DNA from: Bacillota bacterium
GTDB taxonomy: Bacteria; Bacillota; Limnochordia; Limnochordales; ZCTH02-B6
DNA length: 64,000 nucleotides
Assembly: GCA_017656145.1 (NCBI GenBank)
Contig: JACDOI010000001.1
Span: 60,226-124,225, forward strand
Direction: 5' to 3'
In this document: one piece after another, positions 26,182 to 45,151 of the stretch
Layout of the letters: each line of letters starts with the position of its first letter
Numbering within the stretch: the stretch's first letter is position 1
Program-made: the position numbers and the translations under genes
The notes under the pieces: generated by a model
Database searches by the model: none
What the model was told of the DNA's origin: nothing
The model's input: the letters and a program-made list of their open reading frames with translations, nothing else

Positions 26182-27234
26182 TCACAACCCGAGCAATGTT
26201 CGGCCCTGCTCCAACTCAGCGAGCAACCCGTCAAACTCCTCAGTGTCCGCCTCTGCTTCCTCAAAGCCCTCAAGTAGGCTCTCCAACGCTTCGCTGATCC
26301 GCCCATGCACATCGGGCACAATCAGCTCAAATAGCCGCCGCAGGTTCTCATGATAGTAAAAATCTGCCAGCATCACCCGCTCCCAGGCAAGGTCGACCTG
26401 ACCGGCCTCATAGGCGGCCTGCGCTTTCCGAACAGCAGACGTGACCACGTCGGCAACCCGGCCAAGTTCACGCTCGGGATAAAGATACGCGTTTGCTACG
26501 ACCTCCAGGGTAGAGACCAGCTGGCGCCCGGGATCCTCACCGGCCTCCGGATCCGCCCCTTCGAGGTCAGGGGGCACAGGGCTGGGGAACAACTCCGCCA
26601 GGCGCTGCAAGGCGTCCTCAATTTCAAAAGCCTGTTCGGTCGATGCCAATGGCCTGAGCTGTTGCCACAGCTCCCGAACACGCTGCAGGGCCGCCCAACC
26701 GTTGGGATACTCCCACAGTTCTTCCTCGACCGCGTCCTCATACGCCTCGGCCACGCCGTCATCGTTCAGCACTAGCTTCGCCACTACGGCCGCCACGAAC
26801 TCGGGCCGCGCCGCCATCTCACCGGGCACCAACGCCGCGTCGGCTCGCCAAGTCAACTCCCGGGCACGGGCAATGGCTTCCTTAAGCGCGTCGCTGTCGT
26901 CAGTTTCGGCCACCTCGATCACTTCCTCGAGGGCTTCTTCCAAAGCATGGGCCAACGGGGCATCGGACGCGGCCAGACTCCCCTTGAAGCGAGGTAAGTC
27001 CTCTTCCACGAGATCCTCCGCTTCCTCCAGCAGCTCTTCCGGAACGTCGTCAAAAGCGGCCAACGCGGCCAGGCGGACGTTCATGATTTCAATGGCATAC
27101 GTGTGCCAAAGCTCGACTGTATGGTCGAAAAAGGGGTTGTGCGCGTATTGGGCATGAGCGACCGTACCGCTCAGCGCGAAAATAGCCAACAATGCTCCGG
27201 TCAGCCACGGGTGCTTGATGATCGTTTTAATCAT
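26182..27234 (-). CDS. Secreted, highly acidic alpha-helical protein of unknown function
   Basis: Signal peptide (WLTGALLAIFALSGTVAHA), then Glu/Asp-rich helices; start at 27234 overlaps the stop of the upstream propeller gene. Confidence 0.6.
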   Translation of the reverse strand: MIKTIIKHPWLTGALLAIFALSGTVAHAQYAHNPFFDHTVELWHTYAIEIMNVRLAALAAFDDVPEELLEEAEDLVEEDLPRFKGSLAASDAPLAHALEEALEEVIEVAETDDSDALKEAIARARELTWRADAALVPGEMAARPEFVAAVVAKLVLNDDGVAEAYEDAVEEELWEYPNGWAALQRVRELWQQLRPLASTEQAFEIEDALQRLAELFPSPVPPDLEGADPEAGEDPGRQLVSTLEVVANAYLYPERELGRVADVVTSAVRKAQAAYEAGQVDLAWERVMLADFYYHENLRRLFELIVPDVHGRISEALESLLEGFEEAEADTEEFDGLLAELEQGRTLLGL

Positions 27235-28246
27235 TGGGAACAACCCCAACCTCCACCGAGTGCGGACCGCGTCCGACGCTAATGTTATTGACTACACACA
27301 GGCAGCTCACGTCGATGACCGAGACGCTGTCCGACAGACCGTTGGCCGTATACACCTTCTTCCCGTCGGGCGACACCGTAATTCCCCACGGGCGCCGCCC
27401 CATCCGCTCCTTGATCACGTGAATGACCTGGTTGGTCTCGGTATCGATGACGTACACCGCGCTCGTTCCACCGCCGGCCACAAAGAGAAGCTTGCCATCA
27501 GGAGTCAACTCCAACTCCACGGGCCGGGAATCAAGGCCGAGCGAAATTGTGTCAATCACCTGGTGACTGGACACATCAACGACGGACACCGTGCCTCCGA
27601 TCTCCGCCGAAACGTAGGCCCGCCGGCCGTCCGGGGAAAAGATTAGGTCACGAGGTCGGTTACCGACGAGGAAGTATCGCACAAGCCGCCGCTCCTGGGC
27701 GTCGATGACAGCGACGGTGTGGCTTGTCTCAGCGGTCACGTATACCCAACGACCGTCAGGGCTCACGCCGACACCTTCGGGTTCGACGCCCACCCGCCAC
27801 TCGCCGATCATTTCCCCGCTCGTCAAGTCATACCCCGTCGCCATGGCAGCATTCTCGTTTGCCGCCCAAACCTGGGTCCCATCAGGGCTGATATCGACCC
27901 GCTCCGGGTTGGTACCGACCCAGTACTCGGCAACGACCGAGTTCGTCGATACGTCGATGGCGATAATGCGATCATCGGGCGTTTCCAAGACCGGGAAGAA
28001 GTCACTCTGGGCGACGTAAATGATCCGACCGTCCGGGCTGACGGCCATGCCGCGCGGGCGTACGTCTCCCGGACGACCGTTGAGGGGAATCGTGTCGATT
28101 ACCTGTTCGGTGGCAGCATCGATGACGGTGACATCGGCACCGTATTCATTCGACACATAGATTCTGTACGATTCCTCAGCGGAAACGGGCAGTGCGCCGA
28201 ACAAGAGGGCCAGCCCGGCAAGGGCAGCCACAAGACCGCGCATCAT
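27227..28246 (-). CDS. YVTN-type beta-propeller, PQQ-dependent catabolism-associated
   Basis: Signal peptide and repeated IYVSNEYGADVTVIDAATEQVIDTI / GVSPDGRWVYVTAE / FSPDGRRAYVSAEIGGTVSVVDVSSHQVIDTI blades; neighbours are PQQ-system genes. Confidence 0.8.
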   Translation of the reverse strand: MMRGLVAALAGLALLFGALPVSAEESYRIYVSNEYGADVTVIDAATEQVIDTIPLNGRPGDVRPRGMAVSPDGRIIYVAQSDFFPVLETPDDRIIAIDVSTNSVVAEYWVGTNPERVDISPDGTQVWAANENAAMATGYDLTSGEMIGEWRVGVEPEGVGVSPDGRWVYVTAETSHTVAVIDAQERRLVRYFLVGNRPRDLIFSPDGRRAYVSAEIGGTVSVVDVSSHQVIDTISLGLDSRPVELELTPDGKLLFVAGGGTSAVYVIDTETNQVIHVIKERMGRRPWGITVSPDGKKVYTANGLSDSVSVIDVSCLCVVNNISVGRGPHSVEVGVVPND

Positions 28247-28430
28247 GGCTCGCGCCACGTCCTCCCATCCTCTCCATCTCGACAGAATATCGAACAGAAA
28301 CGATCGACCATGAGTCCCCGAGTCATGCGGCAGATGTGTATGCACCTGTATTCTCGTGCATCACCTCCCTTACGCCTGTCGCTTCAGACAACGGTACGGG
28401 AAGTCGTTCCGGAGGCCAGCGCGGGTATCC

Positions 28431-29771
28431 TTAGTTCGCCCGCGAAAATCGACAGGCGCTGTCGTTCTGCAAATCGCCCAACTGGTCCAGCCGCTCGACG
28501 GGGTCCGTGCCGGGCATGTAGATGGCGGGCAGCTCACCGACGAGGGATGCCAGCTCCACCTCATCTCTGACTGCATGTCCGAGCTCCCGTTCCTGGTCGA
28601 CGCGCACGAGATACAGCGACTGGCGCAGCTGATGATCCCAAGGGCGAAAGGAGGTCCCGATCCCTTTCCAGACATCGAACACCGCGTGCGGACTTTCCAG
28701 ATACCGGCGCAGAGAGTCGACCGCCGTCGCACCGCCGAACATGGCGCTCTCAAACAAGATCTTGAGGCTCGCGTAGGCGGCCCATGCAGGAGGATCCATC
28801 GGTGCCCGCCACTGCTCGATGAATCTGGCATTAAGCTCGCGCGCCCCGTATCGATCTAAGGTGGTTTCCCACAACGTAGCCCGGTAGCCGGCGTCCACCC
28901 TCTGGGCCCGCTCCTGCAATATTCGAAAAAACAACCGGGTTTGGGTGGCCGGATGGGGAAACCCGGTGACACGGGCGCTGAGTCCGGTCGCGTCGTACTG
29001 CTGCACGAAGGACAGCTGATCCCCGGCGCTGGTCAACAACACGACGACATCCGGGTTAGCGCGCTGGATCGAATCGAACACAGTCCCGTAATCGGCTTGG
29101 TACGGCTCAACGGCCGATCTGCCCACTTCGCGCACCCCGAAATGTCGTTCGGTGATGGCTTTGCGCGCTCGTCGATACAGCATGCGGCCCTCATCGGAAT
29201 CCTCGTGGACGAGGAACCACCGGCGGTGGGCTGCTCTGACCAACCAGCCCGCCAGGGCGTCCAGGTACATCGCCGCGCTGGCCTCCACATGGAACGTGTT
29301 GGGATGACACTCCGCTCCCCGTAACGCGTCGCTGGCAGAACCGATGTTGAAGAATACCACGCCCTGGTCCGCGGCGGCCCGCATGAGCGCCCGAGCTTGT
29401 TCATCGCCAAAGCCGCCGACAATGGCGTACACACCTTCCTCCCTCACCAGCCGGTGTACCGCTTGTCTGGCGGCTGCCGCATCGGGCACAGTGATGGTGA
29501 CCGCACGGAAATCCATCCCGAGCATCTCGGCGTTGAAGCCGATCTCGTCGCTAGCCATCTGGGCGCCCCGCTCGGCGGAGCGGCTGACCGCGTCCGACAA
29601 GACATGCTCAAGCTCCGTGGCACCCGTAGGCTCGGGCAAAACAACGCCCACGCGCATCGGTTCGGTGAAAACACCCTGGCCCACTGCCTTCCGGGCTACT
29701 CCCAATTGGGCCAGCAGCGCCGCTCCGCTCAAGGCGAGGAACCGTCGACGGGTCCAACGCACCTGTTGCAT
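28431..29771 (-). CDS. Type-I ABC substrate-binding protein of the PQQ-dependent alcohol dehydrogenase system (Tat signal)
   Basis: Twin-arginine signal TRRRFLALSG; MRVGVVLPEPTGATE...DEIGFNAEMLGMDF...YAIVGGFGDEQA; co-linear with the C-terminal half of the 34523-36586 product. Confidence 0.75.
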   Translation of the reverse strand: MQQVRWTRRRFLALSGAALLAQLGVARKAVGQGVFTEPMRVGVVLPEPTGATELEHVLSDAVSRSAERGAQMASDEIGFNAEMLGMDFRAVTITVPDAAAARQAVHRLVREEGVYAIVGGFGDEQARALMRAAADQGVVFFNIGSASDALRGAECHPNTFHVEASAAMYLDALAGWLVRAAHRRWFLVHEDSDEGRMLYRRARKAITERHFGVREVGRSAVEPYQADYGTVFDSIQRANPDVVVLLTSAGDQLSFVQQYDATGLSARVTGFPHPATQTRLFFRILQERAQRVDAGYRATLWETTLDRYGARELNARFIEQWRAPMDPPAWAAYASLKILFESAMFGGATAVDSLRRYLESPHAVFDVWKGIGTSFRPWDHQLRQSLYLVRVDQERELGHAVRDEVELASLVGELPAIYMPGTDPVERLDQLGDLQNDSACRFSRAN

Positions 29772-29813
29772 CTCATCCTCACTCCCAGCCCCGATGCAAC
29801 GATCTCTTGTCAC

Positions 29814-30701
29814 CTACTTGATCCGCGTCGCCCCCATGGCACGGGAAGCGGCCACCACTCCGACGACAGGCAGCACCACTGCTATAGCCAAATCGGCCAA
29901 CAGCGGCAACTGCTGAAACCGGAGTAGGACGCAGCGAAGCAGATCCAGTTCGTAGCTTATTGGGTTTAGATACACTAGTGCCTGGATCCAGCCCGGCAGC
30001 TGCACGACCCAGCCTCCACCAACCGCGTGGATTCCGAGCCGTCGCAGCTCGGCCCGCAACGCGTCGGGTATATCCAGGAATCCAACGCCACCGATAATGC
30101 CCTTCAGGGGAAAAATGGAACCGGACAGGAAATACAACGGCTGAATGATGCCGTTGGAAATGCTGCCAAACCCCTCAAACGTCTTCATGCGGGACGCGAT
30201 AATAACCCCCAAAGCGGTGACCAGTAGCCCCATGGAAAACATGACGAGCCACGCCAGCAGTACACTGATCAGGGTCAAGCGGACTCCCACGATGGGAGCG
30301 AACAGCAATGGAATCGTTCCCTGAACGAGGGCCACTGATGCCCCTCCCAGCAGCTTGCCCAAGGCCACTGACAGCATCGGCGCAGGCGATACTAGAACCT
30401 CCCGGAGAACGCCCACTTCACGATCCCACACTAGGGCGATGGCCGACTGCAACGAGGCAAACAGCACGTTGAGCGTAATAACCCCGGGCAGAATGTATTG
30501 GGCATAGGTGTAACCTTCAATCTCGCGCAACGCCGCTCCCAAGCCGAAACCTAAGATGAGCAGCCACAGCACTGTCCTGGACAATGCGCCAAAGGGCTGG
30601 GAACGGTCCCGTACGTACCGGCGCATTTCCCGGCGCCACATGATCGCGATCACCCCGGCGTCCAGTACAGGCTGCCGCTTCGCCGTCTTAAGGCTCGTCA
30701 T
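29814..30701 (-). CDS. ABC-2 type permease (PQQ alcohol system type)
   Basis: Six-helix ABC-2 permease: MWRREMRRYVRDRSQPFGALSRTVLWLLILGFGLGAAL, YILPGVITLNVLFASLQS; overlaps ATPase gene. Confidence 0.85.
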   Translation of the reverse strand: MTSLKTAKRQPVLDAGVIAIMWRREMRRYVRDRSQPFGALSRTVLWLLILGFGLGAALREIEGYTYAQYILPGVITLNVLFASLQSAIALVWDREVGVLREVLVSPAPMLSVALGKLLGGASVALVQGTIPLLFAPIVGVRLTLISVLLAWLVMFSMGLLVTALGVIIASRMKTFEGFGSISNGIIQPLYFLSGSIFPLKGIIGGVGFLDIPDALRAELRRLGIHAVGGGWVVQLPGWIQALVYLNPISYELDLLRCVLLRFQQLPLLADLAIAVVLPVVGVVAASRAMGATRIK

Positions 30702-31501
30702 CGCGTCATTTCCCCTCCCCGCCGGGCGAAGCCGAGTAGCCGATCGCGGGGTGTTGCCGAATCATCTCGCAGCTGGCGTCCGGTCAGCTCCAGAAACACG
30801 TCCTCCAGGCTGCACTCGGTCGTTCCCAACACTCGATCTTTCAAAACGTGCGGCTCACCGATGGCGACGAGCTTGCCCGCATCGATGATGCCGACCCGAT
30901 CACTGGACTCGGCCTCCTCAAGATAGTGGGTGGTCATGAACACCGTCAGACCCTCTCGCCGCAACCCCGTAATCCTGTCCCACAAGTGGCGGCGACCCTG
31001 GGGATCGAGTCCCAATGTCGGTTCGTCGAGAAACAATACCCGGGGGGCGTGCATCAACGCCCGCGCCAATTCGAGCCTGCGCTTCATGCCGCCCGAGAAG
31101 GTTCGTACGGCGCGATGCGCACTACGGTCGAGGCCGGCCCAAGCAAGGGCCTGATCGATTCGGCGCCGCATCTCGGACCGGGGAATGCGGTACAACACCG
31201 CGTGAAACTCCAGGTTCTCCCATGCCGTAAGGCGATCGTCCAAGGCCGGCTCCTGAAAGACGACACCGATTTTGGCGCGTACTTCAGATTGTTGGGCGAT
31301 CACGTCATAGCCGAGTACGCGGGCCCGGCCCGCGGACGGCTTAATCAACGTCGTAAGGATGTTAAAGGTGGTCGTCTTGCCCGCTCCGTTTGGCCCCAGG
31401 AGGGCAAACAGCTCCCCTCGTTGGACCTGAAACGAAACTTCGTCCACGGCCCGCACAGTGCCAAAAAGATGGACCAACGCTTCACATTCGATAACGGTCA
31501 T
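30698..31501 (-). CDS. ABC transporter ATP-binding protein partnered with ABC-2 permease
   Basis: GPNGAGKTTTFNILTTLIKPSAG, FSGGMKRRLELARALMHAPRVLFLDEPTLGLDP. Confidence 0.92.
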   Translation of the reverse strand: MTVIECEALVHLFGTVRAVDEVSFQVQRGELFALLGPNGAGKTTTFNILTTLIKPSAGRARVLGYDVIAQQSEVRAKIGVVFQEPALDDRLTAWENLEFHAVLYRIPRSEMRRRIDQALAWAGLDRSAHRAVRTFSGGMKRRLELARALMHAPRVLFLDEPTLGLDPQGRRHLWDRITGLRREGLTVFMTTHYLEEAESSDRVGIIDAGKLVAIGEPHVLKDRVLGTTECSLEDVFLELTGRQLRDDSATPRDRLLGFARRGGEMTR

Positions 31502-32301
31502 CCATCGATCGCCTTCTTCGCTACCGCATTCTCAAGTAGCTGCACCGCTTTGCGGGACAGAGCCCAGACGCGGGCGTCTTCCAAATCGCGGGGCCGGGAG
31601 AGCAGCTCGTTGACCCGCAACTCCGCAACAATTTGCCCCGGGCTCGACGTCATAACGACCACCCGATCCGCCAAATAAACGGCTTCCAGCGGATTATGGG
31701 TCACAAACAATACGGTACAGGCCCGCTCCATCCATAGACGGACGAGCTCATCCCGCATCCGCATCGCGGTCAACTCGTCAAGGGCACTGAGCGGCTCGTC
31801 CATGAGCAAGACCTCAGGTTCTATGATCAACGCCCGCGCCAACCCGACGCGCTGCTGCATACCGACGGAGAGCTGCCCTGGGTAATAATTCTCAAACCCG
31901 GCCAACCCGACCCGTTCGATCCACTGGGCGATGCGCTGCCCCAACTGGGATTCGCTCAAATTCCCCCGGTCCAACACAAAGCGCAGGTTTTGCCAAACGG
32001 TCAGCCACGGAAGCAGGCGCGCCTCCTGGAACACATACCCGATCCGTGGTCGTTCGGTGCTCGCTACCAACGCTCCTGATCGAACAAAGCTCAGGTCGCC
32101 TTCGTACTCGCCGTCCAGTCCGCTGACAATGTTTAGCAACGTGGTCTTGCCGCATCCCGACGGGCCTAGCAGACACACAAATTCGCCATCCTCGACCTCG
32201 AGGTTCACCGACTGTAAAGCAACCTGCCGTCCCGTTCCATGAGGTAACGGATACGATTTGGTAATCCCCCGGGAAACGATGCGTGCCACGCTTCGCCTCA
32301 T
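31498..32301 (-). CDS. NitT/TauT-type ABC transporter ATP-binding protein
   Basis: GPSGCGKTTLLNIVSGLDG, LSVGMQQRVGLARALIIEPEVLLMDEPLSALDELTA; ATG at 32301 overlaps the permease stop as ATGA. Confidence 0.9.
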   Translation of the reverse strand: MRRSVARIVSRGITKSYPLPHGTGRQVALQSVNLEVEDGEFVCLLGPSGCGKTTLLNIVSGLDGEYEGDLSFVRSGALVASTERPRIGYVFQEARLLPWLTVWQNLRFVLDRGNLSESQLGQRIAQWIERVGLAGFENYYPGQLSVGMQQRVGLARALIIEPEVLLMDEPLSALDELTAMRMRDELVRLWMERACTVLFVTHNPLEAVYLADRVVVMTSSPGQIVAELRVNELLSRPRDLEDARVWALSRKAVQLLENAVAKKAIDG

Positions 32302-33227
32302 CCGATCCAAGTCATAGGAGTGCGACGCCAACGAAAGGCGTACCGCTCCCACGCTGCCATGATTACGTAGTCCACCACGGCGAGCACCACGATCATTACG
32401 AGGCCATACGCGAGAATCCCCCGCATATCAAACATCTGAAAGTAGAACGAGATCTGGTAGCCCACGCCGTTGGTGCGCCCCATCAACTCAGCGAAGACAA
32501 CCATTTTCCATGCAAGGGACATCGCAGCTCGCCCGGTACCCGCCAGGTAGGGGAACAGTTGTGGCGCCACCACCTTTTGAACGATCACAGCCGCCGGGCG
32601 TCGAAACGCCCGGGCCATCTCGACCAGCTTCGGATCGAGCGCTCGGGCTCCTTCTCGCACCTGTGCTACCACCGTTGGTACAACGACAGCGGCAATGGCA
32701 GTAATGGCGGCCGTTTCGTTTAACCCGATTAGGATGTACGCTCCTACGATGACCACAATGCGGGGAATGGACAGGCCTGACACCAGCCACGCACCTAGCA
32801 GCCGATCGGCTGCGCGTGAGACTCCCATCAAGAGTCCGACAGCGACGCCAATTCCCATAGCAAGGGCAAAGGAAACCAACACCCGTTGGATGGTGGCAGA
32901 CACATGCATGAGGAGGCGGCCGCGCTCCCACTCCTGCCACAGAAACTGCAATGTCTCGCTCGGTCCTGGCAAGACACGCGCCGGCAGAACGCAGGAAGCA
33001 AGCAACCACGCCCCCAACAGCGACAGCAGCGATATCGCGCTCAGAACCGTGGCGTTGGGCCCCGTTGCCCGACGCCACGGCACGGCGACTTGTACCGCTC
33101 GAACGCTGTCTACCGGTGTGCCAGTCGTCCGTTCCGTTTGCAACACGCCATACACATCCCCAGACACCCGGCACGCCTGCCGAACTGCTCCGAGCCCGGC
33201 GCTGCCACTCACCGCTTGTGCGGGCAT
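32298..33227 (-). CDS. NitT/TauT-type ABC transporter permease
   Basis: BPD-type permease: TIQRVLVSFALAMGIGVAVGLLMGVSRAADRLLGAWLVSGLSIPRIVVI, ALDPKLVEMARAFRRP. Confidence 0.88.
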   Translation of the reverse strand: MPAQAVSGSAGLGAVRQACRVSGDVYGVLQTERTTGTPVDSVRAVQVAVPWRRATGPNATVLSAISLLSLLGAWLLASCVLPARVLPGPSETLQFLWQEWERGRLLMHVSATIQRVLVSFALAMGIGVAVGLLMGVSRAADRLLGAWLVSGLSIPRIVVIVGAYILIGLNETAAITAIAAVVVPTVVAQVREGARALDPKLVEMARAFRRPAAVIVQKVVAPQLFPYLAGTGRAAMSLAWKMVVFAELMGRTNGVGYQISFYFQMFDMRGILAYGLVMIVVLAVVDYVIMAAWERYAFRWRRTPMTWIG

Positions 33228-33306: not shown

Positions 33307-34317
33307 TTAAAAAGCGAACTCCGTGCTGTACGCATCCGGATCCAACCGCTCGATCCCGACCAGATCGGAACCGGCTACGGCCACCAGTTGCTCGACGAGT
33401 TCCACAAGGCCCCGGACGATCTCGGAATTCCACTGGCTGGGCAAAGACAGCTCCCACCGTTGCCGGACAGCAGCCATCAACGACGGATCCGGCAGCGAGT
33501 ACAGCCCCTCATCCAGGATGATTTCCCAAATGCCATCGTCCGTCTTCATCCGCGCCACTGCCATGTCCATTGCTCTGAGAAACTTGGCCACCGCCTGCCG
33601 GTCTGCGCCGTCGTGTGCAAGAATGATGAGATTTGGCAATTCCGATGACATGCCCAGTTCGCGCAGCATCTCGTGGACGGATATCACCTCACGAAACTCT
33701 CCGCTGCCCACCATCCGGGCGACAAAGTGCCAAAACGGCAAGGCGGCATCCATCTCTCCACGCAGGAGAAGCTGCGTCATCAACGGTGGCGCAGCTGAGA
33801 TGGTCTGGCTGTCAAACTGCGGGTCAAAACCATACTTCGCCTTCGCCAAAGCTCTCAGCACCAAAAGGCTCTTGTCGGACATGCTCGATGCGCCTATGAC
33901 TCGGCCTCGAAGGTCGGCAACGCTTCGAATATCGCTGTCGGCCCTTACGACCAGTCCGCCTAACGCCAGGCTATACGGGTACACGGCCTTGACGGGGACG
34001 CCATTGGAGCGCATCAAGACAACGTTCACAAAATCGTCGACGGTAACATCGACTTCGCCGGCCATCAGGGCCAATTCCGTGGCCTGCTTCGTAGCATAGG
34101 TCGTTGCTTCGATGTTCAGCCCGACTTGTTCGTCGATGCCAAAGTAGTCGATCGCCCGGATTATCCAGCTAAAGGTGCCTGACGCCTGAAGGCCGGCGCG
34201 GATCGTGTCCGCGGCCAACGCGGGAGCCGAACCGGCCAGGAAAGCGACAGTGGTCACCATTGCGATCAAAGTGCGTCCGCAGCTCCACAACATGGCCAGC
34301 ACCCCTTTCTCTCCCAT
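33307..34317 (-). CDS. NitT/TauT-type ABC transporter substrate-binding protein
   Basis: Signal peptide; IRAGLQASGTFSWIIRAIDYFGIDEQVGLNIEATTYATKQATELALMAGEVDVTVDDFVNVV; adjacent cognate permease and ATPase. Confidence 0.85.
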   Translation of the reverse strand: MGEKGVLAMLWSCGRTLIAMVTTVAFLAGSAPALAADTIRAGLQASGTFSWIIRAIDYFGIDEQVGLNIEATTYATKQATELALMAGEVDVTVDDFVNVVLMRSNGVPVKAVYPYSLALGGLVVRADSDIRSVADLRGRVIGASSMSDKSLLVLRALAKAKYGFDPQFDSQTISAAPPLMTQLLLRGEMDAALPFWHFVARMVGSGEFREVISVHEMLRELGMSSELPNLIILAHDGADRQAVAKFLRAMDMAVARMKTDDGIWEIILDEGLYSLPDPSLMAAVRQRWELSLPSQWNSEIVRGLVELVEQLVAVAGSDLVGIERLDPDAYSTEFAF

Positions 34318-34522: not shown

Positions 34523-36586
34523 CTACCGGGTCCTGTCGGCTTCAATCCCGCCGTAAGCCCCGTCCTGTCCAGGCATTTCCGCTACCAGACTCGCGAAACC
34601 TACTTGACTCGAGACATTGAGACCCCACTCAGCATCCGGATTGACTCGCACCACGTAAAGCGGCTGACGGAGCTGGTGGTCGGCGGCATCGAACGAAAGA
34701 GGTTGACCCTTCGCTACGTCAAAGACGGTTGCCGGATCCTCCAGGTAGGCTACGAGGCTCTCAGCGTCCAGGGCGCCGGTCGCCTGCGCGGCCTGGTGCA
34801 ACATTCGAACCGCCTGATACGCTGCCCAAGCCGACGGATCCATCGGCTTGCCCCAGCGGGCAACGAAGCGCTCATTCAGTTCTCGAGCTCCCTCCCCCTC
34901 CAGCGTCGTTTCCCAAAGCGCGACCCGCTCCGACAATCCCTGCGCGTCGTAGCGGATGTGAGCGGACGCAAGGAAGTCGCGCGTCTGCGTCACCGGATCG
35001 GGATAAGGCGCCACGCCGATGCCAAGATCGAGGGAGCTCATCTGTGAAAGGAAAACAACTTGGTCGAGGGCTCGGACCAGGAGAAGTATTACATCGGCGC
35101 CGGCGTCCCGAGCTGCAAACAGCTCGTTCAAATACGTCGGTTGCTCTACGGCAACCGCCGCCTCGCCCACCACCTCAGCCAAAGGCGCCCTGGCCGCGAG
35201 CGCATCGAGCGCCCGCTCACGGAGGGCTCTCCCTTCGGCGGTCGCCTCGTACACGATGAACCAGCGCCGCTTGTCCAGGCTCACATGCCAATCCACCAGG
35301 GCATCCACATACATGCCCCCGCTCGCCTCCACATGAAACACGTACCGGCTCTTGGACTGCCGCAGAAGGAGATCCGGAGAGCCGATGTTTATGAAAGGAA
35401 TATGGTGCGCCTCGGCGACGGCCGCCAATGCTTCGGCCTGGCCCTCTCCGATTCCGCCGATGAAGGCGTGGACGTTTTCCGTCGCCAGTAGCCGTTCAGC
35501 CGCGCGTTTGGCTGCGGACGCGGTGGGGGCACTCGCCAACAACAATCGCACTTCCGGACCCGGCGCCTCGGTGGAGCCGGTGAGGTGGCCCTCGGCGAGC
35601 AACGCGCCCATCCGGGCTGCTTCACCCACAATGTCGTAGAGGGAAGCCGGCACCCAACTGTGTCCCGTTTGCGTCGGTATGACGACGCCGATTCGGAGCG
35701 TCTCCTCTGCACCCATGGCAGTGGGGGTACCGCCCACGGTGATCGCCGGCCGCGGCAGGGGGTCGAGGGGAACGCCGTACTCCTGCAGGACTGCTTGAAT
35801 CTCATCCCATCGGTTAGCGATCGCGATATTGAGCCGGTCGCGCAAGGCGTCGTCACCGGGACGCACAGCGATAGTCATGGGCACGCTCATGAAAATGGCT
35901 GGCGGCTCAAATTCGGGCGTCACCGGCGTCAACTTGAGCTCGACCGCTTGACGCTGGGCGAAATACGCCGCAACTGGCCCCCAGACGATGCCCACGTCCA
36001 CTTCACCGGCGGCAACCGCATCGACGAGATCCGAGAGGCGATCCGCACTCCCTGTCCGCTGACCAAAGGCTGCGGTCACGTTCTCCGTAATCCCGCGATT
36101 GATCAAAGCGTTGTGCGGCGGGATACCTGGACTTTGCAAGCCAATCCTGAGCGTTCTCAGATCCTCGTCGTCGAGAGAATCGATGTCAAATCCCCGGTCA
36201 GCGCGGTAGACGAAAACGTAGGGAGTGCGATAGTAGGCAACGGTGGTCAGCAGTTCGCGAAATCCGTCCGGGACTCCGAGCAACACGTCGCACTCGCCCT
36301 GTCGCAGCCGCAGATTGATCATATCGGAATTGAATATGTGCCAGTCATATGTGATGAAGGCATTCAGCTCATCGGCCAAGATCTCAACGATCCGGTTCTC
36401 AAAACCGGTCTGCTCAGCGTCCGAAAACGGCAGGCTGATCGGATCCGCACACACTTTCAGCTCCCAGGCGCCGTCAGACGCCGCTGCCCCCACCGGGCTC
36501 GCCAGAATGAGCGCAACTAGCAATACCCAGCCCGCGCGGATCACCGCTCCTTTTCTCCAGCGCCCCCGTCCCGGCCCATGCGACAT
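34523..36586 (-). CDS. Dual-module periplasmic protein: MoxJ/XoxJ-like (SBP_bac_3 type) N-terminus fused to type-I PQQ-system binding protein
   Basis: N-half: WELKVCADPISLPFSDAEQTGFENRIVEILADELNAFITYDW...RQGECDVLLGVPDG. C-half starts LRIGVVIPTQTGHSWVP and parallels the 28431-29771 product to the C-terminus. Confidence 0.75.
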   Translation of the reverse strand: MSHGPGRGRWRKGAVIRAGWVLLVALILASPVGAAASDGAWELKVCADPISLPFSDAEQTGFENRIVEILADELNAFITYDWHIFNSDMINLRLRQGECDVLLGVPDGFRELLTTVAYYRTPYVFVYRADRGFDIDSLDDEDLRTLRIGLQSPGIPPHNALINRGITENVTAAFGQRTGSADRLSDLVDAVAAGEVDVGIVWGPVAAYFAQRQAVELKLTPVTPEFEPPAIFMSVPMTIAVRPGDDALRDRLNIAIANRWDEIQAVLQEYGVPLDPLPRPAITVGGTPTAMGAEETLRIGVVIPTQTGHSWVPASLYDIVGEAARMGALLAEGHLTGSTEAPGPEVRLLLASAPTASAAKRAAERLLATENVHAFIGGIGEGQAEALAAVAEAHHIPFINIGSPDLLLRQSKSRYVFHVEASGGMYVDALVDWHVSLDKRRWFIVYEATAEGRALRERALDALAARAPLAEVVGEAAVAVEQPTYLNELFAARDAGADVILLLVRALDQVVFLSQMSSLDLGIGVAPYPDPVTQTRDFLASAHIRYDAQGLSERVALWETTLEGEGARELNERFVARWGKPMDPSAWAAYQAVRMLHQAAQATGALDAESLVAYLEDPATVFDVAKGQPLSFDAADHQLRQPLYVVRVNPDAEWGLNVSSQVGFASLVAEMPGQDGAYGGIEADRTR

Positions 36587-36695: not shown

Positions 36696-38510
36696 TCAGG
36701 GCAACCCGAAGACGTACAGCGTCGTACCAGTCCTCCGATACCGGGCCGCTGCGTCCGGTGCCACATCGGGGTTGACGGGCTCGTTATTCGGGGCCCGACT
36801 CGTGATCACCGCGACGTATTGCCGGCCATCCGGCCCGAGGTAGCTGATGGGCGAGTTGCGGAAGTCACCGCCGGTCCGGAATGTCCAGAGCACCTCACCC
36901 GTACGCGCGTCCACGGCGCGGAACACACCTTGATCCGTGCCACCAAAGATCAAGTTCCCAGCCGTGGCAAGGACAGGTTTGTTATCCCTGGACGAGTACG
37001 ACTTAAGGCCCCACACCTTTTCGCCGGTCACCGGGTTCCAGGCCTGGAGCTCGCCTTGCCAACCGCCGGGACCGGTTTGCGTCTCGGTCGCCCTGTACAG
37101 GGTGTAGCTCTCACCAGGCACGTACTCGCCCTCAAGCCCCTCAAACCTCGTGCACCGGTTTTCAGCTTGGAAGTAAATCAGGCCCGTTACAGGCGAGTAG
37201 GCGTCATTGAACCAGTTGTTGCCAGCGATGAAGGGGCAGACGAGATCCTCGGTAGGAATGCCCGTGTAGACGAGCGCCTTTTCGTTGAATATAGGCCGCC
37301 CCGTCTCCATGTCGATGCCGTGCGCCCACGTCACGTTCGTATATGCCACCGGCTCGGTCAGGAGTTCGCCCGTGAGGCGGTCATGGACATAGAGGAAGCC
37401 GTTGCGCCCAGGCTTGACGAGCGCCTTGCGCATCTCGCCGTTGATCTCGAGATCGATGACGAACGCCTGGCCGGGTTCATCGAAGTCCCACTGGTCCTGC
37501 GGGGTGTAAGAATACGCCCAGATCATCTCGCCGGTCGTCGCATCTCGGGCGATCAGCGAGGCGCAGTACTTATTTGTGTACTGGTCAAGCCCCGGAGCGG
37601 TGGCCGGGTCGCGCCGGTAGTCCGGGTTCCACGGGCCGCAGTTAGCCGTGCCGTAGAAGAACAGGTTCGACTCCGGATCGTAGGTAAAATAGCCCCAGGT
37701 TGTGCCGCCGCCGGTCTTCCAGGAGTCCCCGTACCACGTAGACACCCCGGGGTTAGGAACCTGGTCATCCGGGTAAAACGGCTTAAACCGCGGCCCAATA
37801 CCCATCTCCTCGTCGGGACCCATATTGTAGTACTTCCACACGAGCTCGCCAGTGTCAATATGGTAGGCCGCGACCCAGCCGCGCACGCCGCGCTCGCCGC
37901 CCTCGTTGCCGATGATGACGTTGTCACCGACGACCAGCGGTGCGGTAGTCGTGGTCTCCGAGATGCTGAGGTCCACGACGTCGGTGCGCCAAATCGGCTC
38001 TCCGGTTTCGGCGTCCACAGCAAACAGTTGCCCGTCGAGGGTGTTGAAAAAGATCTTCCCCTCGGCGTAGGTCAAGCCGCGGGTTTGCGCGCCGCAGCAC
38101 GCCGTTGCTTGCTCAAGGCCCGGCATCTCGGGCTGGAACTCCCATTTGATGTAGCCATCCCGCGTCAGGTCGAGCGCGATGAGCGTGTTCGGCTTCGGCG
38201 TCAGAATGTACATGGTATTGTTTACCACAAGCGGCGGCGCCTCGAGCGAGTCGGTCACACCGATCTGGAAGGTCCACTTGACCTGCAGATCTTTTACGTT
38301 TTCGGTGTTGATGCGATCCAAAGGACTGAAATTCCAGCCGGCGTAGTTCCCGTTGGCCATGGGCCATGTGCCCGGCTCCTTCTCCAGGACGAGCAGGTCG
38401 TTATTGGCCAGGGCGGCTTGCGCCATCAAAAGGAAGCCGACGAGCAGTGCGAGGCTGCCGACGAAAGCCTTACCCGAACGTTGCCCGTTTGTCTTCGACT
38501 TGTGGCTCAT
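36696..38510 (-). CDS. xoxF: PQQ-dependent methanol/alcohol dehydrogenase, XoxF-type (putative lanthanide-dependent)
   Basis: Signal peptide; vicinal Cys ATACCGAQTRGL; TPQDQWDFDEPGQ with D-x-D; repeated PQQ-propeller strands (DGQLFAVDAETGEPIW, GVFRAVDARTGEVLWTFRTG). Confidence 0.85.
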   Translation of the reverse strand: MSHKSKTNGQRSGKAFVGSLALLVGFLLMAQAALANNDLLVLEKEPGTWPMANGNYAGWNFSPLDRINTENVKDLQVKWTFQIGVTDSLEAPPLVVNNTMYILTPKPNTLIALDLTRDGYIKWEFQPEMPGLEQATACCGAQTRGLTYAEGKIFFNTLDGQLFAVDAETGEPIWRTDVVDLSISETTTTAPLVVGDNVIIGNEGGERGVRGWVAAYHIDTGELVWKYYNMGPDEEMGIGPRFKPFYPDDQVPNPGVSTWYGDSWKTGGGTTWGYFTYDPESNLFFYGTANCGPWNPDYRRDPATAPGLDQYTNKYCASLIARDATTGEMIWAYSYTPQDQWDFDEPGQAFVIDLEINGEMRKALVKPGRNGFLYVHDRLTGELLTEPVAYTNVTWAHGIDMETGRPIFNEKALVYTGIPTEDLVCPFIAGNNWFNDAYSPVTGLIYFQAENRCTRFEGLEGEYVPGESYTLYRATETQTGPGGWQGELQAWNPVTGEKVWGLKSYSSRDNKPVLATAGNLIFGGTDQGVFRAVDARTGEVLWTFRTGGDFRNSPISYLGPDGRQYVAVITSRAPNNEPVNPDVAPDAAARYRRTGTTLYVFGLP

Positions 38511-38590: not shown

Positions 38591-39358
38591 TTATCGCATC
38601 GCTGACACCTCCTCCTCCGTCACTGGCCCAAATTCGTTCGACCAGGAGTTTCGAATGAACGTGGCGACGGAAGCGATCTCCCAATCCGAGAGTACGTCGC
38701 GCCACGGAGGCATTCCGTGTTCGACAAAGCCATTGAGAATCATCGGCACCACATAATCGGTACGGGCCAACGCGCTGTTTCCAGCAAAGGCCGGACCGAC
38801 GAGTCCCTGGCCCCGGTTACCATGGCAAGCTGCACACCTAGATGAGAAAATCTGCTCGCCGTTCGACATGAGGGCGGATAGAGTCGCGGGGTCAACCTCG
38901 ACAACGCGTTGACGTTCTTCCTCGACAGGCGTTCCTTCCGGCGAGATCAGGAAGAAGGCACCCCCGAGCCGCTGGCCCCGGACATCGCCTGGATTTCTAT
39001 CCCGGGCGAAACGGTAAAGAGGCCATCCGTTGTATGTCACCTGCGTGGTACCATCCTCCCGCTCGATCGTTCCGAGCAGACCCGCATCTACACCTTCACC
39101 GGCCTTCAGCTCTCCGTCAGCCAATAGAGGCGGCCAGTTTCTCGTACACGCGCCAGTGCAGTTACTTACACTCCCGGAGGGACCAACGGTGTCATTCGTG
39201 TAGATATAGAGACTGCGGCCCTCGCCGTCGGTGAGGATCGGGCCGAACCTTTCACTCTCAGCCACTTTGAGCACATACCGGTCCGCCCCCTCAAGCCGAG
39301 CCGTCAACGAGATCAGCAAGAGCATCAACACTGCTGGTACTGCCAACCGTCGTCCCAT
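38591..39358 (-). CDS. Cytochrome c with N-terminal secreted-repeat (COG4315/PF03640-like) domain
   Basis: GRSLYIYTNDTVGPSGSVSNCTGACTRNWPPLLADGE and TYNGWPLYRFARDRNPGDVRGQ repeats, then SSRCAACHGNRGQG haem site and HGMPPW possible Met ligand. Confidence 0.82.
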   Translation of the reverse strand: MGRRLAVPAVLMLLLISLTARLEGADRYVLKVAESERFGPILTDGEGRSLYIYTNDTVGPSGSVSNCTGACTRNWPPLLADGELKAGEGVDAGLLGTIEREDGTTQVTYNGWPLYRFARDRNPGDVRGQRLGGAFFLISPEGTPVEEERQRVVEVDPATLSALMSNGEQIFSSRCAACHGNRGQGLVGPAFAGNSALARTDYVVPMILNGFVEHGMPPWRDVLSDWEIASVATFIRNSWSNEFGPVTEEEVSAMR

Positions 39359-40284
39359 AGCTGCCTCCCAAATCGTCTCGCTGTAAGGATATCCTGTGGT
39401 TCCATGATTGCTTCGTTTCCCTCGGTAAGGTGCAAGGGTGCCGCCTACGCGCTGTTCTACAAGCTTGTCTACCGCTCTGCCCCCACCACCTTCTTCCGCA
39501 GCTCGGCACACTCATCCCCGCGCCGGCGGCCACTCCCTTAACCACCCTCCCCGCGCGACGGCCGTCGCGCCCGTTGAGCGCGGAGATGTCCCCGGCGTCA
39601 CGTCAGCGCCGTCACCGCCTCGGCCGGATTGCAGATGCCTTATCTTCGTGTCAGACTCTTCGTGTTGCGCGACACAAATAGTACAATCCGTCAATTATCC
39701 TGTGCACATCGCCGATAGCGACGAAACACAACGGATCAACACGCGCTACCTCGCCACCCTTATGCCCGCGAAGACTACCCGCTGACAAACAGCAGGCCCA
39801 TCAACTCCAACCCGACTGCCGCCCCCCTCCGACTGTTGTCGGAATTCTCTACTGAAGTCACACCCCGTGTTTGCACACCTTACCAAGTTCATTACTACAA
39901 CATGAGTCCCCATTTTCCTCCTCGCAGACCAGTGCTGACATACGCTCCATGAATTTCGTCCTAGACGTCATCTTCAGATGGACTTACACCACGGACATTG
40001 GCTGGACGACTTCGTGACCCAAATCGCCAAGTTACCGAATTGCCATCCTTCACGTCCTTATTCCGAGCCTTCACACACGCGTATACGACTCGGTGATGAG
40101 CGTAGGATCGCGCGCGCAACGACAGCCATTCTCGGCCTTTCTGCTTCTGAGCATCGGCCCAAACTCTCGGATCAAAGTCAAGGGGGTTCGCCACCGGATT
40201 CGTCGATACCGCCGCTCGACAGCCCACAGATCCGGGTCGCCGCAAGCGCATCCGAGCCAGGCAATCCATATTTTCAGCTTTCCC

Positions 40285-41133
40285 CTATCCCGCGTGGCTC
40301 CCGCCCAAGCCTTTCGAATGCGGCGCAGGGCCCAATTCCCGCCGGTCCTCCTGCACCCACCGGATGAAGGCTCGCCCCATGTAGCTCAACATCACGATCA
40401 TTCCGCCCAGCTTCATCACCACACCGGCCAATTGCTGATCGGCAAGCGGCGACAATCCCCACACGGACGGCGCTTGGGCGTAGAACTCATAGAACACCGA
40501 ATCGGCAAAGGTGATACCGGCGAACACCGGCAGCTGCACCAGCAAAATGAGAAAGATGTAAACCACCTGGGCTCCGTACGACAGCGCCGGCAACTCGCGA
40601 CTGGAGCTGACCAGGGGCCACCACATCATCAGCGCCGTGATCACCATCAGCGCGTGCTGAACCGGATGCAGCCAGTGCGTCAAAAGCGGCGCCTCGTAAA
40701 AGTAGGGAAGATGCCACGCCGCGTTCACGATATTGAACGCCAGCAGGGCGACGACCGGCCGGGTGAGGGCGGTCAAAACCCGCCTCATCCCCGGCCAGCG
40801 CAGGATGTAACTCACGAGCCAGTCCGGCAACCCCGCGATAAAAAGCGGGGGCATTACCATAGTCAACAGCACATGCTGCAACATGTGCACACTGAACAAG
40901 TAATCCTCCGACAGTCCGTGAAGCGGCGTGGCCTCGGCCAGTGCCATCACCGCCATCGCCGCGGTAAAGAAGATCATCGGGCGCCGCTCAATCCGGTCCG
41001 CCAGGCCCAGCCGCTCCCGCACGGGCCCAACGAGGTAAAAGTAAACCGTACAGAACCCGAAGATGACTGCCAGAACTTCCGGGTACCACCAGCGCAATGC
41101 CCCGGCCTGCGCATGGGCAAGGACACCAGGCAA
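40285..41133 (-). CDS. ctaG: Cytochrome c oxidase assembly factor CtaG (caa3 type)
   Basis: FSVHMLQHVLLTMVMPPLFIAGLP and multiple TM helices; next to ctaCDEF. Confidence 0.9.
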   Translation of the reverse strand: MPGVLAHAQAGALRWWYPEVLAVIFGFCTVYFYLVGPVRERLGLADRIERRPMIFFTAAMAVMALAEATPLHGLSEDYLFSVHMLQHVLLTMVMPPLFIAGLPDWLVSYILRWPGMRRVLTALTRPVVALLAFNIVNAAWHLPYFYEAPLLTHWLHPVQHALMVITALMMWWPLVSSSRELPALSYGAQVVYIFLILLVQLPVFAGITFADSVFYEFYAQAPSVWGLSPLADQQLAGVVMKLGGMIVMLSYMGRAFIRWVQEDRRELGPAPHSKGLGGSHAG

Positions 41134-41148
41134 AGTCCCTAGGCCTCC

Positions 41149-41451
41149 TTAGGCCAGAATGGCCGTCACCGCCAGCGCGATCAGGATCGCCAGAACGACG
41201 CCTACCGCAAAGAAACCGGAGTAGACCCGGCTATCGTACTTCAAATGCATGAACACCGAGGCCACCAAGAGAAACTTCCACGCGGAAAGCCCAACGAGCA
41301 CCGGCGCCAGCACCGGGCGCAGGGCCTCCAGGTAAATGACCGCCACCTCGACTACGGTCAGCACAAAGAGCATGACGCCGACCTTAAGATACTCCCGCGT
41401 GCCCGCGTGGGCGTGACCGGCGTGAGCCCTATCCATCGCTCGCTCGCCCAT
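41149..41451 (-). CDS. ctaF: Cytochrome c oxidase subunit IV
   Basis: VLTVVEVAVIYLEAL...WKFLLVASVFMHLKYDSRVYSGFF. Confidence 0.88.
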   Translation of the reverse strand: MGERAMDRAHAGHAHAGTREYLKVGVMLFVLTVVEVAVIYLEALRPVLAPVLVGLSAWKFLLVASVFMHLKYDSRVYSGFFAVGVVLAILIALAVTAILA

Positions 41452-41454
41452 TGA

Positions 41455-42093
41455 TTACACCCCCGCCTCCGTCAGCAAGAAGACAACCGTGAAGATCACG
41501 ATCCACACCACATCTACAAAGTGCCAGTACAGCCCCGCCACGTCCACGTGAACCGCGTGCTCGCGCCGCAAAGTGCCCCGGAAAGCGCTCACAGCCAGTA
41601 CGGCCAACCATATCATGCCGAAGATGACGTGCGCCTTGTGAAACCCGGTGAGAATGTAGAAGATGCTGCCGAAGATGTTGGTGTTCCACGTAAGTCCGTA
41701 GTGGTGAGCCAGGTGCCACCACTCGTAGAACTGAATAACCAGGAAACCAATCCCACCGAGAATCGTGAACAACAGAAACCGCCCGACGGCCTTGCTCTCG
41801 CCCCGCTGCGCTGCCGATACGCCCAGGGCCATGGTCAGGCTGCTCATCAGCAAGATGAACGTGCTGACCGTGGTCAGCGGGATGTTGACCACCTCGTCGG
41901 GATGCGGACCGACCACGCTCCGGTACCGGAACACCATGTACGTCGTGATCAGCGCCGCGAAGAACATCGACTCGGATGCGATGAACAGCCACGTCGCCAG
42001 CTTATGATTGGGAATACCCAACGAAGTATGATGCTCGTGCCCGTGGGCCGCTGCTCCTGCGGGCATACTCGCCGCGTGGGACGAGTGGCTCAT
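41455..42093 (-). CDS. ctaE: Cytochrome c oxidase subunit III
   Basis: FIASESMFFAALITTYMVFRYRS, GFHKAHVIFGMIWLA, YWHFVDVVWIVIFTVVFL. Confidence 0.93.
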   Translation of the reverse strand: MSHSSHAASMPAGAAAHGHEHHTSLGIPNHKLATWLFIASESMFFAALITTYMVFRYRSVVGPHPDEVVNIPLTTVSTFILLMSSLTMALGVSAAQRGESKAVGRFLLFTILGGIGFLVIQFYEWWHLAHHYGLTWNTNIFGSIFYILTGFHKAHVIFGMIWLAVLAVSAFRGTLRREHAVHVDVAGLYWHFVDVVWIVIFTVVFLLTEAGV

Positions 42094-43967
42094 TACTGCT
42101 CGCCTCCAGGTTGAATGATCCGCATGTTGTCGCCCTCAAAGCCCCAGCCTATCAGGCCGAGGAGGGAAAGCACAATGCCGCCGACGAAGACGGGCATGCT
42201 GTAGAGCAACCCGTAACCGGCAATGAACAGCCCCAACGAGACCAGAAGGGGCATATAGCTCCCACCGGGCATGGCGATGGGCTCCGCCGGGCCGTCGGAT
42301 TCGGCCGAGGCCGCCACCGCAGCACCCTCAGCCAGTTGCGGATGCTTCCGAACCCAGAGCTCGTCCCGGCTTGACACGTTCGGCAAGCGGGCAAAGTTGT
42401 ACTCAGGGGCCGGCGACGGAATCGCCCACTCCAGCGTCCGGCCGTCCCAAGGGTCAGCCGGCGCCCGCTCGCCGTTGCGAAGACTCGTTACCAGGTTGTA
42501 CAGCGTGATCAAGATGCTGACGGCCATAATCAGCGCGCCCAGGGTCGACGTAGCGTTCAAGCCGTCCCAGCCCATGCCGGCCGAGTACGTGTAAATCCGC
42601 CGGGGCATGCCCATGACGCCCAGAATGTTCATCGGGAAGAACGTCAAGTTGAACCCGACAAACAGCGTCCAGAACGCAACCTTCCCCAAGCGCTCGTCGA
42701 GCATCCTGCCGAACATCTTGGGACCCCAGTAGTGCAGCGCCGACATCAGCGAGAACAGAGCACCGCCGATCATCACGTAGTGGAAATGCCCGACCACAAA
42801 GTACGTGTGATGGATCTGCGTGTTGGACGGCGCCGCCGACAGCATGACCCCGGTAAGGCCGCCGATGAGGAACAGCGCCAGGAAGCCCAGCGAGTACAAC
42901 ATCGCTGCGGTAAACCGGAGGCGGCCGCCGAACAGCGTTCCGATCCAGTTGAACATCTTAATGCCCGTCGGGACCGCGATGATCATTGTCGCCAAGGAAA
43001 AGATGGTGTTCACCACAGGTCCCATACCGACGGTGAACAAGTGGTGAGACCAGACACCGAAGCCGACAAAGCCGATGAGCATCGTGGAAAACACCATGAC
43101 CGAATATCCAAAGAGCGGCTTGCGGGAAAAGACCGGCAGCACTTCGGATACGATGCCCATGGCCGGGAGGACGATGATGTATACCTCCGGGTGGCCAAAC
43201 ACCCAGAACAGGTGGTGGTAGAGCGTCAGGTCCGCTCCAGAGAACACGTCGAAGAACACAGTGCCGAACACACGGTCGAACAACAGGAGGAGCAGTGCGA
43301 CGGTGATGACCGGGAACGAGAAGACGATCAGGAACGACGTCACCAGCGTCGCCCAGGCGAACATGGGCATGCGCATCAGACTCATGCCCGGAGCCCGCAT
43401 ATTAAGGATGGTCACGATGAAATTGAACCCAGACACCAAAGTGCCGATACCCGCAAGGAGCAACCCGATGATCCAGAAGTCGACACCGAGGCCCGGATTG
43501 AACTCAGACAAGCTGTAGTTGGGATAACCGAACCAACCGGCGTCCGATGGGCCACCCAGCACCCAGCTGGAATTCAGGAAGATGCCGCCGGCGAGGAACA
43601 TCCAGTAACTGAGGGCGTTCAACTTCGGAAACGCCACGTCCCTGGCGCCGACCAGCAACGGGATAAAGTAGTTGAAAAACGCAGCCGTCAGCGGCATGAT
43701 GGCCAGGAAAATCATCGTCGTGGCGTGCATCGTGAACAGCTGGTTGAACAAGTCCGGCGCCACCAAATCTTGCTCGGGCCGGGCCAGCTGCAGGCGAATG
43801 AGCAGCGCCTCCACGCCGCCGATGAGAAAGAACGCCAGCGCAGTCCAAAAGTACAGGATGCCGATGCGCTTGTGGTCAACGGTCGTGACCCAGCTCCAGA
43901 AACCAGTCCGAGCTCTGGGTTTGGGCAACGCCTGCCAGAAGGAGCGTTCCAAAGTCGTTGTTGCCAT
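42093..43967 (-). CDS. ctaD: Cytochrome c oxidase subunit I
   Basis: WVTTVDHKRIGILYF, HHLFWVFGHPEVYI, GVWSHHLFTVG, THHTYFVVGHFHYVM-like haem/Cu ligands. Confidence 0.96.
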   Translation of the reverse strand: MATTTLERSFWQALPKPRARTGFWSWVTTVDHKRIGILYFWTALAFFLIGGVEALLIRLQLARPEQDLVAPDLFNQLFTMHATTMIFLAIMPLTAAFFNYFIPLLVGARDVAFPKLNALSYWMFLAGGIFLNSSWVLGGPSDAGWFGYPNYSLSEFNPGLGVDFWIIGLLLAGIGTLVSGFNFIVTILNMRAPGMSLMRMPMFAWATLVTSFLIVFSFPVITVALLLLLFDRVFGTVFFDVFSGADLTLYHHLFWVFGHPEVYIIVLPAMGIVSEVLPVFSRKPLFGYSVMVFSTMLIGFVGFGVWSHHLFTVGMGPVVNTIFSLATMIIAVPTGIKMFNWIGTLFGGRLRFTAAMLYSLGFLALFLIGGLTGVMLSAAPSNTQIHHTYFVVGHFHYVMIGGALFSLMSALHYWGPKMFGRMLDERLGKVAFWTLFVGFNLTFFPMNILGVMGMPRRIYTYSAGMGWDGLNATSTLGALIMAVSILITLYNLVTSLRNGERAPADPWDGRTLEWAIPSPAPEYNFARLPNVSSRDELWVRKHPQLAEGAAVAASAESDGPAEPIAMPGGSYMPLLVSLGLFIAGYGLLYSMPVFVGGIVLSLLGLIGWGFEGDNMRIIQPGGEQ

Positions 43968-44044
43968 GGCCGATCTCCTCTTCTCCCAAACGATTTCCCA
44001 CAGTCTCCCCGAGCGAGCCGCCCGATCGGCTCATCCCCGGCGGA

Positions 44045-45151
44045 CTAGCGCAAGCTGCGCAAGTAGGCTACGACATCGTTGAGTTCACTGTCCGTCAGCC
44101 CGACCCGCGGCATAAGCGCCCCGGGTTTCACAGACTGCGGATCGTCGATCCATCGAGCCAGGTTTTCCGGGGTGTTCTCCAGGATGCCGGCCGCGAGAGT
44201 CGTCCGCAGGCCGATGTCGGTCAGATTGGGACCCGCCACTCCCCGGGCCGCCGTGCCTTCAATGCTGTGGCACCCAAAGCACGCCCGGGTCTCAAACACT
44301 TGCCGCCCCCGTTCGACGGCCTGGCGCTCCGCCTCGCTGGTCACTACGGGCCCCCGGCCCCAGTTGTCCGCCCACTGCTCGAACTCCGCAGGCGGCAGCG
44401 CTACAACCCGCAGGCGCATGTTGGCATGGTGGGTGCCGCACATTTCCGCGCACTGGCCGTAGTAGACGCCGGGCTCATCCGCCTGGAACCACATGCGATT
44501 CACCCGGCCCGGGATGGCATCCATCTTGCCGGCAAGCTTCGGGACCCAGAATTTGTGGATGACATCGTCCGACTCGATCACCAGCTCGACCGGCCGGCCC
44601 ACCGGAATGCGCATTTCATTTCCTGTGACGATGCCGAGCTCGGGGTATTGGAATTCCCACCACCACTGATGGCCGACGACCCGCACTTTAATGGGGTCGC
44701 CCTCCGGGTCGGCAGCGAGGGCAAACGAGTATCGCACCGTCGGAATCGCGATCACGATAAGGAGCAAGAAGGGGATAAGCGTCCACACCAGCTCGAGCTT
44801 GTGACTGCCTTCGATCTGCGGCGGCAGATCCTGCTCGCCAGCGGCGGCGCTTTCCCGCCGGGCGGCCGCTCCGCCCGGCGCGCTCCCGGCGGCCGCGGCT
44901 CCTTTCGCCCGGAACCGCACAAGCGTATACACCAGGACACCAGAAACGGTGACAAAGATCCCGATCATGATCCACAGAGTGAGCAAGAACAGCCGCCCTT
45001 GCATCTCTGCGACCGGTCCTGCCGGATCAAGCCAGTATTGCGGCGCGGCCATCGCTGCCTGTGAGGGCAAAAAGGCCAACAACAGCCCCCCCAAAATCAA
45101 CCCGCGCCACATCGCCGACTTCACGCTACACATGTCCCACGCCTCACCCAC
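44045..45151 (-). CDS. ctaC: Cytochrome c oxidase subunit II with fused cytochrome c domain
   Basis: CuA motif YGQCAEMCGTHHANM; C-terminal ACFGCHSIEGT haem c site. Confidence 0.94.
   Translation of the reverse strand: MGEAWDMCSVKSAMWRGLILGGLLLAFLPSQAAMAAPQYWLDPAGPVAEMQGRLFLLTLWIMIGIFVTVSGVLVYTLVRFRAKGAAAAGSAPGGAAARRESAAAGEQDLPPQIEGSHKLELVWTLIPFLLLIVIAIPTVRYSFALAADPEGDPIKVRVVGHQWWWEFQYPELGIVTGNEMRIPVGRPVELVIESDDVIHKFWVPKLAGKMDAIPGRVNRMWFQADEPGVYYGQCAEMCGTHHANMRLRVVALPPAEFEQWADNWGRGPVVTSEAERQAVERGRQVFETRACFGCHSIEGTAARGVAGPNLTDIGLRTTLAAGILENTPENLARWIDDPQSVKPGALMPRVGLTDSELNDVVAYLRSLR

Follow-up and report, generated by a model that had tools for sequence, protein, structure and literature searches.

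The genome of a Bacillota bacterium of the class Limnochordia has, beside the gene for a PQQ dehydrogenase, a gene in which two different periplasmic binding-protein folds appear to be joined. Such an arrangement raises the questions of whether the fusion is genuine, where its two halves came from, and what the joined protein may do for the adjoining enzyme. In the 64,000-nucleotide stretch of DNA that was analyzed (the window), the gene occupies positions 34523–36586. The first-pass annotation had these coordinates right; the strand is corrected here to minus, where the ORF is one intact, uninterrupted gene, and the plus strand has stops in this region. The ORF starts with ATG, has AGGAGG 5′ of the start, and encodes 687 amino acids. 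A Sec-type signal peptide (about residues 1–37, by inspection) is followed by a type-II binding domain (residues 42–274; 35765–36463), a linker (about residues 275–294; 35705–35764), and a type-I binding domain (about residues 295–672; 34571–35704). At the junction of the halves, GC3 is even and stops are abundant in the remaining frames. An AlphaFold model, computed from a 42-row alignment, has two well-formed domains and low confidence in the linker, at about residues 288–292 (mean pLDDT 87, pTM 0.79). The earlier proposal of two binding-protein folds in one protein is thus borne out by the single ORF and by domain profiles on each half, and the E-values rule out chance as an explanation of these matches.

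The N-terminal half is of the XoxJ/MxaJ type by profile, sequence, and fold, as had been proposed. It scores 217 bits against TIGR03871 (ABC_peri_MoxJ_2), above the cut-off of 212.15, whereas the ordinary amino-acid model SBP_bac_3 gives 20.3 bits, under its cut-off of 26.4; an ordinary amino-acid binding protein is thereby ruled out. The nearest solved structures in PDB are XoxJ and MxaJ, both by sequence (XoxJ 6onp, 1.4e-32; MxaJ 5sv6 and 9ism) and by fold, the Foldseek matches including MxaJ 5sv6, the MxaF/MxaJ complex 9ism_B, and XoxJ 6onp (TM 0.83–0.89 by target length). The fold and the adjoining PQQ dehydrogenase are shared with the XoxJ/MxaJ/PedG proteins (TIGR03870, TIGR03871), but most of the relatives surveyed are stand-alone proteins of about 280–330 amino acids and lack the second binding domain found here.

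The C-terminal half had been described as a type-I binding protein of PQQ alcohol dehydrogenase systems. This description holds for the fold (PF13458, Peripla_BP_6, residues 315–651, 135.8 bits), the homology, and the gene context; the half misses the curated threshold of TIGR03863 (PQQ_ABC_bind), scoring 87.2 bits, far under the cut-off of 413.6, on a scale where proteobacterial members reach 457–480 bits. By homology and gene context, it is accordingly best regarded as a relative of PedA1/LutA, which serves the lanthanide ABC transporter PedA1A2BC/Lut as its binding protein. It retains the C-terminal family signature KG...DHQLRQP (KG...QLRQP being shared with PedA1/LutA) and, in the model, an intact two-lobe fold with pLDDT mostly >90. 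Several residues that are invariant in seven stand-alone paralogues are absent. Unlike PedA1/LutA, this half is fused and stands as a duplicate beside a stand-alone copy.

The same joining of domains is present in four more genomes: G003, of the same family as the window genome (67% identity); G288, the MAG Bu80, labelled Bacillota (L041/L044; 43–44%); and two Deinococcota MAGs, namely KLAP159 and a Trueperaceae bin (L043 and L045; 47–48%). The identical architecture in four other genomes excludes misassembly, and the chance that an assembly artefact joined two genes is negligible. The search for the fusion in other genomes suggested by the first-pass annotation was therefore answered in the affirmative. 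Of 41 named loci with the N-domain, 38 (from Pseudomonadota, Gemmatimonadota, Acidobacteriota, and other groups) encode it in an ORF that lacks a type-I domain, in agreement with the earlier statement that the two halves are normally separate genes. Matches to either half at E ≤ 1e-20 were found in 4 of 73 genomes of the window's class and, in a sample of 400 genomes from its phylum, in 5. The KLAP159 MAG has another TIGR03871 match (G457:C90:7226-7921) in a 701-aa open frame, which is probably a second fusion copy or the product of strain mixture. A literature search, with subscription papers outside its reach, found no published fusion of XoxJ with a binding protein. It also found no report of XoxF in Trueperaceae or Limnochordia; PMC11456536 mentions neither XoxF nor PQQ.

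Phylogenies of the two domains indicate a single fusion origin. In the N-domain tree, all five fused copies fall into one clade (100/99), and their closest kin are the N domains of two genomes without the fusion, G005 and G006. The C domains of the five fusions likewise group together in their tree (87/82; 100/99 without Bu80). The stand-alone PedA1-like proteins of these genomes fall outside this group, which sits within the PedA1-like clade, beside proteobacterial PedA1-like proteins; the fused and the stand-alone copies are all distant from the proteobacterial members. These placements indicate that the C-terminal half is probably a diverged duplicate of the stand-alone PedA1. Independent recent fusions in each phylum are unsupported, since each half gives one clade. 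All five fusion genomes retain a stand-alone PedA1, so that the fusion is not the sole PedA1 in any of them. In the unfused G005 and G006, the only PedA1-like gene is a separate one directly after the XoxJ gene, so that the two neighbors have the order of the fusion halves. Based on the five-copy clades and this arrangement, the simplest history would be that PedA1 was duplicated and one copy became fused to XoxJ; the presence in both Bacillota and Deinococcota would then be explained by transfer or common descent.

The fusion gene is part of a module on the minus strand, in which most genes overlap or are separated by short gaps. In the order of transcription, a gene for a Lipoprotein_15 and cytochrome c protein (38591–39511) is followed by the dehydrogenase gene (36696–38510), then, after 109 bases, by the fusion gene, and then by an NMT1/SsuA-like ABC importer comprising a binding protein (33307–34317), a permease (32298–33227), and an ATPase (31498–32352). 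Next are genes for a PedB/LutE-like ATPase (30698–31501; TIGR03864, 230.8 bits, cut-off 302), a PedC/LutF-like permease (29814–30701; TIGR03861, 115 bits, cut-off 241), the stand-alone PedA1/LutA-like binding protein (28431–29813; 42% identical to the fusion C-terminal half, its paralogue), a PedA2/LutB-like beta-propeller (27227–28345; TIGR03866, 246.9 bits, cut-off 287), and an uncharacterized exported protein (26182–27249) without a match in Pfam, NCBIfam, or PHROG. The C-terminal half is thus linked to PedA2, PedB, and PedC genes (27227–31501), which all score under their NCBIfam cut-offs. A cytochrome oxidase cluster with CtaG (40285–45151) lies directly upstream of the module. The module is kept in G003; in the Deinococcota MAGs it is split over two nearby clusters, with the transporter genes several kb off in a separate one. 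The combination of a DxD dehydrogenase, XoxJ, a cytochrome, and cox/ctaG genes resembles XoxF3-type clusters with cox/ctaG (PMC10875860).

The first protein of the module, in which a Lipoprotein_15 repeat is joined to cytochrome c, accompanies both the fusion and the dehydrogenase, and it is possible that it takes over from cytochrome cL as the electron acceptor. The exported protein follows the propeller gene in the fusion genomes, with 59% identity in G003 and about 33% in the Deinococcota. The second importer is likewise kept close to the module in the compared genomes (the Bu80 contig is too short to show it), and a role in cofactor or chelate uptake is possible. In relatives, PedA1A2BC and LutAEF carry lanthanide to the cytoplasm, and growth that depends on XoxF requires XoxJ. 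Pseudomonas putida requires PedA1A2BC to grow at low lanthanum, and this system has been read as a lanthanide importer (PMC6839425). In Methylorubrum, La builds up in the periplasm of lutA, lutE, and lutF mutants, and loss of xoxJ equals loss of xoxF for lanthanide growth (PMC7391723).

The neighboring dehydrogenase belongs to the methanol/ethanol PQQ family (TIGR03075, 509 bits, cut-off 480), and its best solved relative is XoxF 4mae (43% identity). It retains the lanthanide ligands, with D301, E172, N256, and D299 of XoxF corresponding to D344, E206, N290, and D342 here, and the lanthanide Asp is present at position 305 in MxaF numbering. In the same numbering, E55, R109, T159, E177, N261, W243, D303, R331, N394, and the Cys-Cys pair are kept, and four positions are altered (S174 to E, W245 to Y, H299 to Q, and W476 to D). 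Unlike XoxF and MxaF, the enzyme has an insert at 300–311, an extra conserved Cys pair at 291/316, and an altered catalytic loop (PQDQWDFDEPGQ). In a tree built with a quick method from a sample without named XoxF1-5 references, the four fusion-adjacent dehydrogenases form one deep clade (branch 1.32) outside the 32 others sampled, and they do not fall within XoxF clades. To judge from its sequence, the enzyme is likely a lanthanide-type dehydrogenase of a separate deep clade that has retained its lanthanide and most of its PQQ ligands, and not a canonical XoxF. This clade is present in all four fusion loci with a visible neighbor, the Bu80 contig ending before any dehydrogenase, whereas the XoxF motifs in the dehydrogenases of G005 and G006 are canonical. 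The fusion is therefore associated with a particular dehydrogenase clade.

A further feature of the fusion genomes, overlooked by the earlier annotation, is the absence of PQQ biosynthesis genes. In a profile search, pqqB, pqqC, and pqqE were over the cut-off in both unfused relatives (G005 and G006) but not in any of the five genomes with the fusion. The window genome is rated 98.95% complete, and incompleteness is an unlikely cause of three genes missing from five genomes. The association of the fusion with missing pqq genes counts few independent lineages or events and comes from draft assemblies, several of them derived from metagenomes; what lies behind it may be a transfer of the module into bacteria that do not produce PQQ rather than a functional cause.

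XoxJ-like domains are also joined to other partners. In the G005/G006 pair, two minus-strand ORFs (L040:9052-10350 and L039:9195-10412) have a XoxJ-like domain with a C-terminal cytochrome cL-like domain (TIGR03872 under the cut-off in the former). In an Azospirillum locus (L083:7827-9212), the partner of the XoxJ-like domain is a PQQ_CXXCW/rhodanese protein (TIGR03865), and both parts score over the cut-off; in a Beijerinckiaceae MAG (L070:260-2113), a single open frame encodes the domain and, after it, ankyrin repeats. A XoxJ-type domain is likewise joined to a part of the XoxF system in the XoxG-XoxJ fusion published for Methylacidiphilum (PMC8498564), where the partner is the cytochrome XoxG, whereas the partner here is a type-I binding domain. 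That XoxJ has been joined repeatedly, for the most part to components of a single system, agrees with a role of the XoxJ domain as a docking platform for the dehydrogenase.

What, then, might the fusion do? The reading that we tentatively favor, with a chance somewhat short of even, is that it is a periplasmic cofactor-loading factor for the adjoining dehydrogenase. This reading is based on the XoxJ/MxaJ-type N-terminal half, the cryo-EM complex of MxaF with bound MxaJ (PDB 9ism), the PedA1-like C-terminal half, and the conserved module. The XoxJ half would dock on the immature apo-dehydrogenase, in the way known from MxaJ. The half derived from PedA1, as a duplicated domain for ligand capture, would hold a cofactor component near the enzyme and release it locally, the cargo being a lanthanide, a lanthanide chelate, or external PQQ or PQQ-lanthanide. 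A lanthanide is suggested by the family of the C-terminal half, and PQQ by the missing biosynthesis genes. Because the hosts are without pqqB, pqqC, and pqqE and the PQQ/lanthanide site of the dehydrogenase is essentially complete, the cargo could plausibly be scarce PQQ that is scavenged, either as such or complexed with lanthanide. These features hint that capture of the cofactor and its insertion are joined in one molecule. A more specific form of the idea, which we consider doubtful, is that the duplicate of a lanthanide-transporter binding domain turned to the capture of external PQQ or PQQ-lanthanide and was fused to XoxJ; if true, such a PQQ-scavenging loader would serve a previously unrecognized clade of lanthanide dehydrogenases. 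The first-pass annotation had envisaged a XoxJ-like factor joined to an ABC-linked binding protein and cooperating physically at XoxF. The domains hold, but the transporter keeps its own stand-alone PedA1 (28431–29813), so that the fused half is an additional, diverged copy and not simply the binding protein of the transporter. Physical cooperation would be supported by the 9ism complex and the other XoxJ fusions, with a partner that is not an ordinary XoxF.

Three observations weigh against cofactor loading: the invariant residues lost from the C-terminal half, which may therefore bind another ligand or none; the altered positions of the dehydrogenase, which may bear on its substrate and even on its use of the cofactor; and the few lineages behind the pqq association, together with possible transfer of the module without pqq genes. 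Nor is the joining of two domains in itself proof of hand-over. If the C-terminal half is free of ligand, it could instead dock on PedBC or PedA2 and thereby hold the XoxJ-dehydrogenase pair at the membrane by the lanthanide importer. The overall fold, with its mostly high pLDDT, would permit this, and the genes for PedA1, A2, B, and C are clustered in the window, in G003, and in relatives. Such tethering is nonetheless unlikely: every fusion genome has a separate PedA1 that would be a competitor for the docking site, and in the Deinococcota the transporter genes lie at a distance. A relic without ligand binding, retained for structure or stability (e.g., shielding the dehydrogenase or aiding its encounter with the cytochrome), would account for the lost residues and for the faster divergence of the fusion than of the dehydrogenase (67% vs. 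84% identity to G003). We hold this to be similarly improbable, given that the whole domain is kept in five genomes of two phyla with its signature and two-lobe fold intact.

The adjacency and shared order of both genes in the unfused relatives would also agree with a simple co-expression fusion of neighbors, whose halves act as in other bacteria and have no special function. However, those relatives have a single PedA1, whereas the fusion genomes keep a second, fused copy in its own clade, and the fusion is associated with a different dehydrogenase clade and with absent pqq genes; a co-expression fusion is thus quite improbable.

The cofactor-loading reading bears on how PQQ and lanthanide enter apo-XoxF and on what the XoxJ and PedA1/LutA proteins bind. 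In hosts seemingly unable to make PQQ, the fusion offers one expressible protein in which docking, ligand, and hand-over may be studied together. Finally, the dehydrogenases beside it would represent a separate lanthanide-type clade in Limnochordia-like Bacillota and Deinococcota, beyond the usual proteobacterial methylotrophs.
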